Part shown: positions 14,142-20,743 of the stretch, one piece after another
Layout: each line of letters starts with the position of its first letter
Position numbering within the stretch: the first letter of the stretch is position 1
IMG/VR virus record: IMGVR_UViG_3300033571_002828
Coordinates: 1 to 31,824 of that record
Reading direction: 5' to 3' (one strand)
From: a virus
DNA length: 31,824 bases
Notes under the pieces: generated by a model
What the model was told of the DNA's origin: nothing
Databases searched by the model: none
What the model saw: the letters and a program-made list of their open reading frames with translations, nothing else
Position numbers and translations under genes: made by a program

Positions 14142-14494
14142 AAGTCTTCTCCAAACATAGCCCATCTAACTTTTCTGTTATTTCTTTTTAGTTCAAAGTG
14201 ATTGGGATTACAACATTCTTGATTATGACAACTCAGTGTAATAGCGTAAGGACTAACATCTTCATTGGTATGACTCATATAAACTAATCTACGTGCCTGT
14301 GTCATTTGCTGTTTACCATTTTTCCAAGCACCCATAAGTGCTCCAGTAGGACTCATCGCTCCGTGATATCGCCAACATTCATTGATATCCAAACTGACTT
14401 CAATCTTTGACCATAGTCTAGCATCATCCCAGCCCCAGACACCAATTTCTTTATAGCCAGGTTTAGTTTTATGAACTTGTCCCAGTGCTGGCAT
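14138..14494 (-). CDS. HNH-type nuclease-like protein (divergent)
   Basis: A 118-residue protein with the shape of a phage HNH protein: CWRYHGAMSPTGALMG near residues 41-56, a basic helix around ARRLVYMSH, then SCHNQECCNPNHFEL near 88-102. In classical members the middle element carries a His (HR) and the end reads CxNPxHL. Here the first is ARR and the second is CCNPNHF, so catalysis is uncertain. Such proteins are free-standing homing or nicking nucleases, or DNA-binding derivatives. It is coupled on both sides. Confidence 0.7.
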   Translation of the reverse strand: MPALGQVHKTKPGYKEIGVWGWDDARLWSKIEVSLDINECWRYHGAMSPTGALMGAWKNGKQQMTQARRLVYMSHTNEDVSPYAITLSCHNQECCNPNHFELKRNNRKVRWAMFGEDL

Positions 14495-14781
14495 TATTGT
14501 TGTTCCTTGATCATGGTCATTAGTTGGGGATTTTCATGTAAGCAATGAACTAGGGCCGCGGCCATTGTGTCCACTTGCTGTTCTGTGAGGCATTGATTCA
14601 TAGTCATTTCCCAAATATGAAATATCTCGTGAAATATTGTTTGAAGACGAACCCATCCAGTGAGATCTGGATCAATGATAATAGTATTTGTTTTTGGATC
14701 GCATAAGCCAAGGCAATCCACTAGTTCTCGTGGCTCGGCATTTCTTATTTCCCATGTTTGCGACATAAATTTAATCTGCAT
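14494..14781 (-). CDS. Small zinc metallopeptidase-like protein with HEIFH motif
   Basis: A 95-residue protein with IFHEIFHIWE, an HExxH zinc motif, and a downstream helix (LTEQQVDTMAAALVHCLHEN) that could supply the third ligand. This is like the small IrrE/ImmA-type peptidases of phages. Before it lies GLCDPKTNTIIIDPDL, typical of this group. The substrate is unknown; it might cut a host regulator. An AAGGAA ribosome site precedes ATG 14781. The gene stands at the 3' edge of the structured RNA candidate. Confidence 0.8.
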   Translation of the reverse strand: MQIKFMSQTWEIRNAEPRELVDCLGLCDPKTNTIIIDPDLTGWVRLQTIFHEIFHIWEMTMNQCLTEQQVDTMAAALVHCLHENPQLMTMIKEQQ

Positions 14782-14837
14782 GTGTTTGTTCCTTTGTAGT
14801 ATTTACCTATTTCGTCATTAAATGCTTATCTACAGGA

Positions 14838-15216
14838 AACTTATAAAGTCCTAAAGGACTTAAAACTCATCAATCACTACGCTATCGCTTCGTTCTTTGA
14901 TTTCGTTTTGCTTATAAGTTCTTTCTTTCAAAGGGAGATTATTGATTTAACTAACCAATGTTAATTAGATATGACTGGTGGTTGATTCGTAGTGATGGCT
15001 AATGTAGTGCGGGTCTAAAAAACCAGGCACCAAATTAACTATCCTTCGCTACCAGCTTAACTAACATTGGTTAGTCTCATCTTAATTAGCGACCGCAATA
15101 ACAACTTTTCAGCGGGAGACGCTTGACTATGTAACTCCCCAGGAAGATGAATCCTGTGTTCTGGCATGCCGTTGTTATCGTAAGTTGTATCGCCTTTAGA
15201 GCAATAACTATTGCGG
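14838..15216 (-). ncRNA. Candidate large structured RNA in a 553-base gene gap
   Basis: The gap 14782..15334 has no credible gene but many nested complementary segments. Domain 1: an 8-bp stem 15093..15100/15209..15216 encloses a second 8-bp stem 15098..15105/15171..15178, which overlaps it by three bases and so competes for them. It also encloses hairpins 15114..15118/15135..15139, 15140..15144/15152..15156 and 15183..15193/15201..15209; the last uses a G-U pair only on the minus strand. Domain 2: a perfect 14-bp stem 14950..14963/15062..15075, with further pairing inside. Domain 3: 14838..14846/14912..14920 around hairpin 14846..14851/14856..14861. Ends are approximate and no known class is recognised. 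Confidence 0.5.
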
Positions 15217-15334
15217 GATCTTACGCAACGCCCAATTCTTTAGCCATCATATTGTAACTGGGATTTTTCCGTTGTTTTTGTTTGGTGTGGACTCCACCGT
15301 GCCTAAATTATGCCTGAATTTGTTTGCCTGTATT

Positions 15335-15805
15335 TTACTTAGTTTCTAGATATACTTTTTTTACTTCTGCTTTATACTTAATATACTCATCTCTGCCATT
15401 ACCGATTCCCTGACGACGAATGCCTCTTAGGTATAGTCGTTCTGCTCGCTTAACCGAATTATTAATTTTTTCTAAATGGATTTTGGTAAGACTTTGTCTG
15501 CGTATAATTACTCGTTCTTCTAATGCACCTAACATTGAGATATCACTGCTGTCAAAATAATCATAGACGCAACTTAATCTAATGTCTTGAAATAACTTTA
15601 CATCATCGGGACTAGGATGATTCAATAATAATTCTTCTGTTAGATTATTTTTGAACAACCAATCTTTAACTTTAAGTTTATGCTGTTTTTGTTTTTTAGT
15701 ATCAGTTTTAGCTATTTGCCAAGTGCCACCGATATCTTTATGCTGTCGTTGCTCGGCAGCTTTACGCCAAGCACCATCTTCAAATCTTTGCCATACATTT
15801 GTCAT
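15335..15805 (-). CDS. Hypothetical basic protein upstream of the RNA candidate
   Basis: A 156-residue, strongly basic and helical protein. It starts MTNVWQRFEDGAWRKAA and has Lys/Gln-rich stretches (TKKQKQHKLKVKDWL). Its C-terminal helix is rich in Arg (SVKRAERLYLRGIRRQG). The charge suggests nucleic-acid binding, and it is the gene directly upstream of the RNA candidate, but no known domain is visible. Its ATG overlaps the stop of the preceding 49-residue gene (ATGA). Confidence 0.65.
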   Translation of the reverse strand: MTNVWQRFEDGAWRKAAEQRQHKDIGGTWQIAKTDTKKQKQHKLKVKDWLFKNNLTEELLLNHPSPDDVKLFQDIRLSCVYDYFDSSDISMLGALEERVIIRRQSLTKIHLEKINNSVKRAERLYLRGIRRQGIGNGRDEYIKYKAEVKKVYLETK

Positions 15806-16342: not shown

Positions 16343-16371
16343 ATTATACAACAGTTTTCACTGTTTTACAA
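16343..16371 (-). promoter_or_regulatory. Promoter with palindrome between -35 and -10
   Basis: On the minus strand TTGTAA (16371..16366), a 17-base spacer and TATAAT (16348..16343). The spacer carries a 16-bp inverted repeat AACAGT-GAAA-ACTGTT (16350..16365), placed where a bound regulator would block polymerase. The first gene is 15953..16294. A terminator lies just upstream, so this starts a separate unit. Confidence 0.85.
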
Positions 16372-17564: not shown

Positions 17565-17587
17565 TTTGAACTCTCTCTGTGTGTGTT

Positions 17588-17648
17588 ATGTAGCGAGCAC
17601 CTTACTCGCTACATTTACTATTATACGCCTTTTGGTGATTTGTGTCAA
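17588..17648 (-). promoter_or_regulatory. Early promoter with 10-bp-arm palindrome downstream of -10
   Basis: On the minus strand TTGACA (17648..17643) begins with the base after the TAA of the upstream gene. A 17-base spacer and TATAAT (17625..17620) follow. A palindrome, ATGTAGCGAG-7-CTCGCTACAT (17614..17588), covers the predicted start of transcription. It could be an operator or a 5' hairpin. Confidence 0.9.
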
Positions 17649-17873
17649 TTAAACGGGATTGATTTCATCTGTAATACTTTGTATTACTTTAACAATCTTA
17701 AACTGGTCAGCCAGCATCCAAGATTTGAATTGGTTGCCTTTGTAAGTGCCCTGACGATGTTCACCGAATAGAATCCTGGCGTCATCTACTGTGGCACAAT
17801 CTGGAATGTGGTTATAACGAAACCAAAGACCTTTGGAGGGGCTTAGACGCCACACTTGATAAAATGTTCTCAT
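17649..17873 (-). CDS. Hypothetical early protein (74 residues)
   Basis: It starts MRTFYQVWRLSPSKGLWFRY, is rich in aromatic residues, and has DDARILFGEHRQGTYKGNQF in the middle. It is coupled to the NUMOD3 gene by ATGA. Its stop codon abuts the -35 box of the next promoter. The Trp/Tyr-rich start resembles small phage modulators, but no family can be named. Confidence 0.6.
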   Translation of the reverse strand: MRTFYQVWRLSPSKGLWFRYNHIPDCATVDDARILFGEHRQGTYKGNQFKSWMLADQFKIVKVIQSITDEINPV

Positions 17874-20157: not shown

Positions 20158-20189
20158 AATAGGCCTCCTTTTGCTGTTAACGATAAGTT

Positions 20190-20218
20190 ATTATAGCATC
20201 AAAATCATTTAGTGTCTA
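20190..20218 (-). promoter_or_regulatory. Second (proximal) promoter for the gene at 20157
   Basis: On the minus strand TAGACA (20218..20213), a 17-base spacer and TATAAT (20195..20190). It follows the upstream promoter in tandem, inside a non-coding gap, so the gene pair below can be driven from two starts. AATTAAATAGACA is shared with the promoter at 21009..21037. Confidence 0.85.
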
Positions 20219-20227
20219 TTTAATTTT

Positions 20228-20297
20228 GGTGCTATCATGTAGTGCCTAATTGCTTACTACATGTATGTATTGTAGCACCGAATTCAATTTGTGTCAA
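20228..20297 (-). promoter_or_regulatory. Distal early promoter with nested palindromes
   Basis: On the minus strand TTGACA (20297..20292) follows the TAA of the 54-residue gene directly. A 17-base spacer and TACAAT (20274..20269) follow. Two nested inverted repeats lie around and below the -10: GGTGCTA/TAGCACC (20279..20273 with 20234..20228) and CATGTAGT/ACTACATG within it. They share ATACATACATG with two other early promoters. Confidence 0.9.
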
Positions 20298-20462
20298 TTA
20301 AGCGGCTTTATGTAAAACCAAACGAGTGCGTGGATCTACTGACAAAACTTCTGTGTCCAATTTTGCCAACACTCGCGCCAATTCTGTGTAAAAGTCATCA
20401 CCATGTTTTTGGTGCTGTTCTCTTATGTAAACTTCCAGTCGTAGTTTTTCAGTTAGTGTCAT
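20298..20462 (-). CDS. Small early protein (54 residues)
   Basis: It begins MTLTEKLRLEVYIREQHQKH. It is helical and charged (YTELARVLAKLDTEV) and ends VLHKAA. A GGAG ribosome site is five bases before ATG 20462, just past the stop of the previous gene. The next promoter's -35 starts with the base after its stop codon. It looks like a small DNA- or protein-binding helical protein, but that is only an impression. Confidence 0.7.
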   Translation of the reverse strand: MTLTEKLRLEVYIREQHQKHGDDFYTELARVLAKLDTEVLSVDPRTRLVLHKAA

Positions 20463-20473
20463 GTTATCTCCAA

Positions 20474-20656
20474 TTACATGTTTTGGATACGGTCAATAAA
20501 ATACGCTTTAAGTGCCTGCGTATATGCTACAGTTTTTGCTGTTTGGTGCGCCTCAGTGGCAACAAATTGTAGTTGTTTTGCTACTTCAGTAATAGTAAGG
20601 TCAGCCATTTGGTAAATGATTTGATCCTCAAGTGTATGTGTTTTAGTATTTGCCAT
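20474..20656 (-). CDS. Small helical early protein (60 residues)
   Basis: The frame is open to 20743, but this would include the promoter. ATG 20656 has AAGGA about eight bases upstream. The protein starts MANTKTHTLEDQIIYQMADL, with a helix (ITEVAKQLQFVATEAHQTAK) suggestive of an oligomer. It is followed by the 54-residue gene after 11 bases. No family is recognised. Confidence 0.7.
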   Translation of the reverse strand: MANTKTHTLEDQIIYQMADLTITEVAKQLQFVATEAHQTAKTVAYTQALKAYFIDRIQNM

Positions 20657-20696
20657 TTTAAGTCCTTTGTGTGTTAAAAAATATGTAATAACTGAA

Positions 20697-20743
20697 CTGC
20701 TACTACATGTATGTATTGTAGCAGTTTGGTCATTTTGTGTCAA
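20697..20743 (-). promoter_or_regulatory. Early promoter with palindrome overlapping the -10
   Basis: On the minus strand TTGACA (20743..20738) is contiguous with the TAA stop of the upstream gene. A 17-base spacer and TACAAT (20720..20715) follow. An inverted repeat CTGCTAC/GTAGCAG (20703..20697 with 20724..20718) surrounds an ATACATACATG core. The leader to the ATG has TTAACACACAAAGGACTT. Confidence 0.92.

Follow-up and report, generated by a model that had tools for sequence, protein, structure and literature searches.

GOLLD (RF02032) is a large, pseudoknotted noncoding RNA encoded by phages, often longer than 800 nt and commonly, if not necessarily, located near tRNA genes; it assembles into a homo-oligomeric cage. 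Its 3′ region is constant and its 5′ region less conserved (PMC12286853). ROOL (RF03087) is a large, pseudoknotted RNA of phages and prophages with a size of about 600 nt, often found by a tRNA island, and HEARO (RF02033) is a structured RNA that lies near a gene for an HNH endonuclease. Plasmid ColE1 RNA II is a replication primer of about 550 nt that joins a structured 5′ part to a conserved 3′ part; it stays hybridized to the DNA, and RNase H cleavage of the hybrid primes synthesis at its own locus.

The RNA described here is encoded by a small tailed bacteriophage. It resembles GOLLD in being large, pseudoknotted and phage-encoded, and its constant and exchangeable modules follow the same division between 3′ and 5′ regions, as a likeness only. 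It is shorter, however, at approximately 500 nt, its conserved sequences differ, and no tRNA gene was found in the phage genome. The size is similar to that of ROOL, but there is no tRNA island, and an exchangeable 5′ body is not described for ROOL. An HNH gene lies near the RNA as with HEARO, but here the same gene also occurs in sister phages that lack the RNA. Any likeness to ColE1 RNA II would be one of function, proposed from the position of the RNA gene in a replication slot; in contrast to the plasmid system, a c28-like protein gene adjoins the RNA, and a primer-template hybrid is only hypothetical.

The preliminary description had placed the RNA close to the GOLLD/ROOL kind without assigning it to either, and had suggested that it could be a new class. 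The searches against Rfam that it proposed agree with both views. With Rfam 15 at the gathering score, there are 0 matches in the window and 0 in the loci of 14 relatives (tmRNA, introns, RNase P and others), and a low threshold adds chance-level matches only. With an E-value limit of 10, the GOLLD covariance model matches neither the window region nor any of eight genomes, most of which carry an RNA of type A or B (see below). For ROOL the main evidence is the absence of a cmscan match; a separate search was also empty, but left the control genomes unmatched too. The HEARO model gives no match, nor do the group I and group II intron models in the window, with nothing above the cut-off for RF01998 (a group II model). 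No description of such an RNA was found in the literature searched. The RNA is a new large structured phage noncoding RNA that matches no known RNA family.

The locus and its relatives

The window is the whole of IMGVR_UViG_3300033571_002828, a single virus record of 31,824 bases. Its two ends share an identical 87-base overlap, so that the record very probably covers a whole genome, either circularly permuted or assembled as a circle. The genes are on the minus strand, as are the parts of the RNA located below, and include recognizable terminase, portal, tape measure, and tail genes. The large terminase is ~50% identical to those of Pelagibacter phage HTVC111P and Vibrio phages. ARAGORN detects no tRNA gene in the window and neither tRNA nor tmRNA in the gap that holds the RNA. 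Two further gaps, 20158-20743 (586 bases) and 17565-17869 (305 bases), contain no chosen ORF on the coding strand. A leader motif, TAAATA followed a few bases later by AGG, has a copy at ~14800-14806 of the window and many in relatives; it stands ~21-25 bases ahead of many ORF starts, with per-genome counts almost all on the coding strand, and also marks the 5′ edge of several RNA genes.

The gap at 14782-15334 spans 553 noncoding bases, the length given in the preliminary description. The longest ORF on either strand is at most 36 aa. Directly downstream lies a run of metalloprotease, HNH, terminase, and portal genes, all on the same strand. The metalloprotease-like gene (14494-14781; phrog_1233 and phrog_87) served as the anchor for finding homologous gaps and brought in 17 related contigs. 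Other queries were less productive: the 156-aa neighbor protein used alone found no relatives, scanning with the 14-bp arm gave nothing beyond chance matches, and blastn against annotated phages yielded short chance matches and no copies of the RNA. A scan with the 3′ core added the contigs of L161 and L163, the latter completed by profile searches with two flanking proteins as L170/L175; L170 is the contig first met as L163.

Upstream of the metalloprotease gene, the relatives carry content of three kinds, namely a type A RNA, a type B RNA, or protein genes. The type A RNA of the window recurs in L020, L026, L161, and L170 with the same gene order, and in the distant L003. Type B RNAs (L024, L032-L036, and L166) share the last ~100 bases with type A and differ in the body. 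All of these come from environmental contigs, and they supply only six sequences of type A and two of type B that are clearly distinct. At the same locus, L031 has a 617-nt gap (L031:2384-3000) with a similar 5′ flank (TATAGGCAAAnnACGCTACCCAGC) and no folding signal. Its assignment as a third RNA type (type C) was dropped, as it is a single sequence with a z-score of −0.9 and without the 3′ module.

The gene immediately upstream of the RNA (15335-15805) encodes a small helical protein of 156 aa, cluster c28, which adjoins five of five close type A loci. It accompanies type A RNAs only and is absent beside those of type B. No family scores above the cut-off in Pfam, PHROGs, NCBIfam, or PADLOC, and a fold search with the c28 model (pLDDT 72) returns no matches. 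In L003, a 121-aa ORF just upstream of the RNA resembles c28 weakly (hhalign E = 0.0014, probability 17%, 72 columns). We infer that c28 is a candidate protein partner of the type A RNA.

Structure of the type A RNA

It is nearly certain that the gap at 14782-15334 encodes a conserved structured RNA. The minus-strand fold of the gap is better than 100 of 100 dinucleotide shuffles (z = −3.6), and the plus-strand fold is weak (z = −1.7). Single type A sequences fold at z = −3.6, −4.5, and −5.35. The covariation among homologous gaps, which the preliminary description had named as a test of its large ornate RNA, bears that reading out. Two-sided changes that keep pairing occur at 32 of 52 helix pairs in five aligned sequences, compared with 5 to 13 when the partner is slid; the helices of this set were picked for pairing, so their 100% pairing is by construction and the evidential weight lies with the two-sided changes. 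A plain MAFFT alignment, counted independently, gives two-sided changes at 11 of 26 pairs, a value reached by 0 of 500 shuffles (mean 5.5). Alignment folding yields z = −6.3 for the 5′ body and z = −9.0 for the P8 domain, with 0 of 200 column shuffles as good.

The RNA gene extends over 14830-15327, with approximate ends deduced from helices and flanking leader motifs, and corresponds to homologous gaps in L020, L026, L170, L161, and L003. It consists of a 5′ body, the P8 arm, a linker, and a 3′ module. The extent of 14838-15216 first put forward was too short, as conserved helices reach 15318 and the RNA measures ~500 nt rather than 379.

Helices P1, P3, P4a, P4b, P5, P6, and P8 and a pseudoknot are present in all five close type A sequences. 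In P1, the 5′ arm (UUC.GGC, 15312-15318) pairs with 15159-15165; the pairing is kept in five sequences with one compensatory pair. P3 is a 7-bp helix (15256-15262 with 15231-15237) closed by a conserved GAUAUGACGGCUAAAG-like loop. All of its alignment cells are paired and 5/7 pairs show two-sided changes, as illustrated by the variants CCCAGUU/AAUUGGG, CUCAAUC/GGUUGAG, UUCUGUU/AACAGAA, and CUCUAUC/GGUAGAG. The P4 5′ arms occupy 15221-15230 (P4a 15227-15230, P4b 15221-15225) and the 3′ arms 15170-15183 (P4b 15179-15183, P4a 15170-15173), with compensatory pairs at 2/4 positions of P4a and 3/5 of P4b. The P5 hairpin (15141-15155; 15152-15155 with 15141-15144) has compensatory changes at 3/4 pairs. 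The P6 hairpin (15114-15139) is GGGAG/CUCCC with the conserved loop UUACAUAGNCAANCGU, invariant in five sequences; L003 has UUGUAG/CUACAA and a related loop.

The pseudoknot joins the apical loop of P4b (15209-15216) to a strand 3′ of P6 (15093-15100) through 8 bp with a span of 124, and 7/8 pairs are compensatory. Its sequences differ widely among the five type A RNAs and are always perfectly complementary, as Watson-Crick helices of 8 to 10 bp. The P4b loop and the strand after P6 read CCGCAAUA/UAUUGCGG, CUCAAGCA/UGCUUGAG, UUAUACUUA/UAAGUAUAA, UUAUACUUAC/GUAAGUAUAA, and AUUUAUAGC/GCUAUAAAU. This is the 8-bp stem over about 124 bases of the preliminary description; the pairing is real, but it forms a pseudoknot rather than a stem that closes a domain.

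The perfect 14-bp stem over 126 bases, also reported there, is the long P8 arm (15062-15075 with 14950-14963), where 11 of 13 aligned pairs are compensatory; the full complementarity covers 18 nt (14950-14967 with 15058-15075, 94%). The P8 domain contains an oligo-U run (15017-15022) that is six to eight U long in all six type A RNAs. It may contact the A-rich linker, which also occurs in all six. Ahead of the linker is a CUUUGA box (14928-14933), invariant in types A and B and present in L003. The 3′ module (14846-14909) comprises a stem-loop with GA-rich internal loops (14862-14909) and an AAGUCC/GGACUU hairpin (14846-14861). Other pairings in the gap are present by sequence (15098-15105 with 15171-15178, 14873-14881 with 14988-14996, and 14838-14846 with 14912-14920), but some shorten or are only partly kept among homologues. 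By eye, the 9-bp pairing of 14873-14881 is reduced to 5 bp in part of the relatives, and its formation would compete with the invariant 3′ module; that of 14838-14846 is kept in part.

Because the conserved helices read as minus-strand RNA contain 8 G-U and 0 A-C cells (the helices having been chosen for minus-strand pairing), and because of the single-sequence z-scores, the product is probably a minus-strand transcript of ~500 nt. The direction agrees with that proposed earlier, but as a weak call, since alignment folding scores the opposite strand alike and does not by itself separate the two.

A sixth type A copy was located in L003, whose terminase is 53% identical to that of the window. 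R2, a covariance model built on the 5′ body, matches L003:1511-1723 with E = 6e-5 over 460 kb, a rough value like all those from models built in this analysis. The helices can be followed through P3 (AGAAGA/UCUUCU), P4, P5 (CCUA/UAGG), P6, and a P8 of 12 bp to a U7 run, the CUUUGA box, a 7-bp A/U stem, and a 3′ hairpin (AAGUCAA/UUGACUU). The L003 pseudoknot has 8 bp including two G-U and is not significant alone. By itself the L003 RNA folds at z = −8.2. Its gene neighborhood differs from that of the other type A loci. The upstream 121-aa ORF shares its 3′-terminal stretch with the RNA at L003:1511-1572, such that these bases are both coding and part of the RNA structure.

Modular construction of the RNA

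The RNA is built in two parts, a 5′ body (P1, P3, P4, the pseudoknot, P5, P6, and P8 with its oligo-U run) and a near-invariant 3′ module. In sister phages the same module follows a quite different structured 5′ body, which makes the body the exchangeable part. This modularity adds to the earlier reading. The 64-nt module hardly varies between types A and B; its 37-position core has 36 to 37 identities in RNAs of both types and at most 23 elsewhere. Model R1 scores above 120 bits in RNA-bearing phages only, and the body models R2 and R3 recover type A and no type B copies. The type B bodies are also structured, with z = −4.4 for L024, although L032 alone reaches only −0.65. A comparison of L024 with L032 shows 14 two-sided changes and 26 pairs that are not kept, and the type B structure is less firmly shown than that of type A.

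The replication slot and possible roles of the RNA

In sister genomes G002, G004, and G009, the position upstream of the metalloprotease gene is filled by c33, a protein of 522-549 aa. Over residues 170-477, its predicted fold matches that of family A DNA polymerases (VIA Z 10.1, 268 residues, rmsd 5.2 Å). The model is poor outside this segment (mean pLDDT 49), and plain Foldseek E-values are weak (best 0.049). No family was found for c33 in Pfam, PHROGs, or NCBIfam. In the predicted structure, palm and fingers of the polymerase fold can be made out (for example, L023:1400-2968), with motifs like SIDIDVCSQ, RAKQIITAIGFG, and LLLVHDAV. It is possible that c33 represents a minimal polymerase or primase not described before. 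The slot is occupied by DUF5906 or primase-like proteins in L164, L027, and L171, by a helicase-like protein of 501 aa in L028, which has a Walker-A-like GEGKT and belongs to phrog_2467, a family without assigned function, and by a 249-aa protein of no recognized kind in L022. According to tblastn, neither of the two complete genomes with the RNA, the window and G006, encodes a homologue of c33, the DUF5906/primase-like proteins, or the 501-aa protein. G006 is complete (174-bp end overlap) and carries a type A RNA; apart from those for structure or packaging, its proteins longer than 200 aa comprise a single DNA methyltransferase-like protein and one without assigned function.

The RNA and the replication-type genes look like alternatives at one locus. 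We tentatively propose that the RNA is the working product. From its position, which is the sole support for such a role, it may serve replication of the phage together with the c28 protein encoded upstream; the likeliest form would be an origin or primer RNA that lets host enzymes begin phage DNA synthesis. The constant 3′ module could be the effector end that meets host machinery or template, and the exchangeable 5′ body might set specificity or control, like parts of plasmid ColE1 RNA II. Several observations speak against a replication role. Cassettes of any sort may enter at this hot spot, given the gap of L031 without a structure signal and the 249-aa protein of L022; the L003 RNA lies in another neighborhood; c28 is tied to the L003 ORF only weakly and is missing beside type B RNAs; the window and G012 retain an AAA ATPase; and neither GC skew nor AT skew gives an origin signal pointing to the RNA locus.

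It is rather less probable that the RNA acts in trans in the manner of GOLLD or ROOL, as an abundant folded molecule, perhaps a homo-oligomer, at work in the infected cell and not at an origin. The size, the pseudoknot, the phage setting, and the combination of a constant 3′ with a variable 5′ region would all be in keeping with this, and the RNA and its neighbor protein recur in a second gene neighborhood in L003, as a free cassette would. However, the RNA has no sequence or structure match to either family, no tRNA genes, near which both are often found, were detected in the window, and a trans-acting role leaves the position in the replication slot unexplained.

An unlikely alternative is that of a cis-acting leader or antiterminator, which in the manner of the HK022 put RNA would allow host RNA polymerase to read into the downstream packaging and structural operon. 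The RNA does sit just before the metalloprotease-HNH-terminase-portal run on the same strand, and the nearest strong promoter-like site (16343-16371) is upstream, so that transcription may pass through it. Yet sister phages have the same downstream operon without the RNA, different genes follow it in L003, and the put-type elements known are far smaller than ~500 nt.

The chance that the RNA is catalytic or mobile, either intron-like or linked to a homing endonuclease and inserted at this locus, seems very small. HNH and NUMOD3 homing-endonuclease genes are near, and only some of the sisters carry the RNA; against this, the intron models find no match (RF01998 stays below the cut-off), the RNA lies between genes and not within one, and the sisters that lack it have other genes instead of an empty site. 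Inverted repeats that act in the DNA, as a cruciform or as hairpins of a single-stranded origin with no role for the RNA, are scarcely credible: the helices are mostly Watson-Crick only, so that the strands look alike in alignment folding, but the G-U cells without A-C, the preference of the single-sequence z-scores for the minus strand, and the conserved single-stranded loops and pseudoknot are more typical of RNA.

Returning to the role in replication, it is conceivable, if doubtful, that, within a lineage of small phages, the RNA gene displaced a polymerase, primase, or helicase gene of replication and assumed its function at that locus. This would be an exchange of protein for RNA in which a constant effector module fits different RNA bodies. 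The large structured RNAs known from phages form few classes, most of them without an established function; the new one has strong covariation and a modular design. Its natural swap with a replication-type gene in sister phages makes the function of the RNA testable. If the replication role is true, this would be an RNA standing in for a replication enzyme in a DNA phage.
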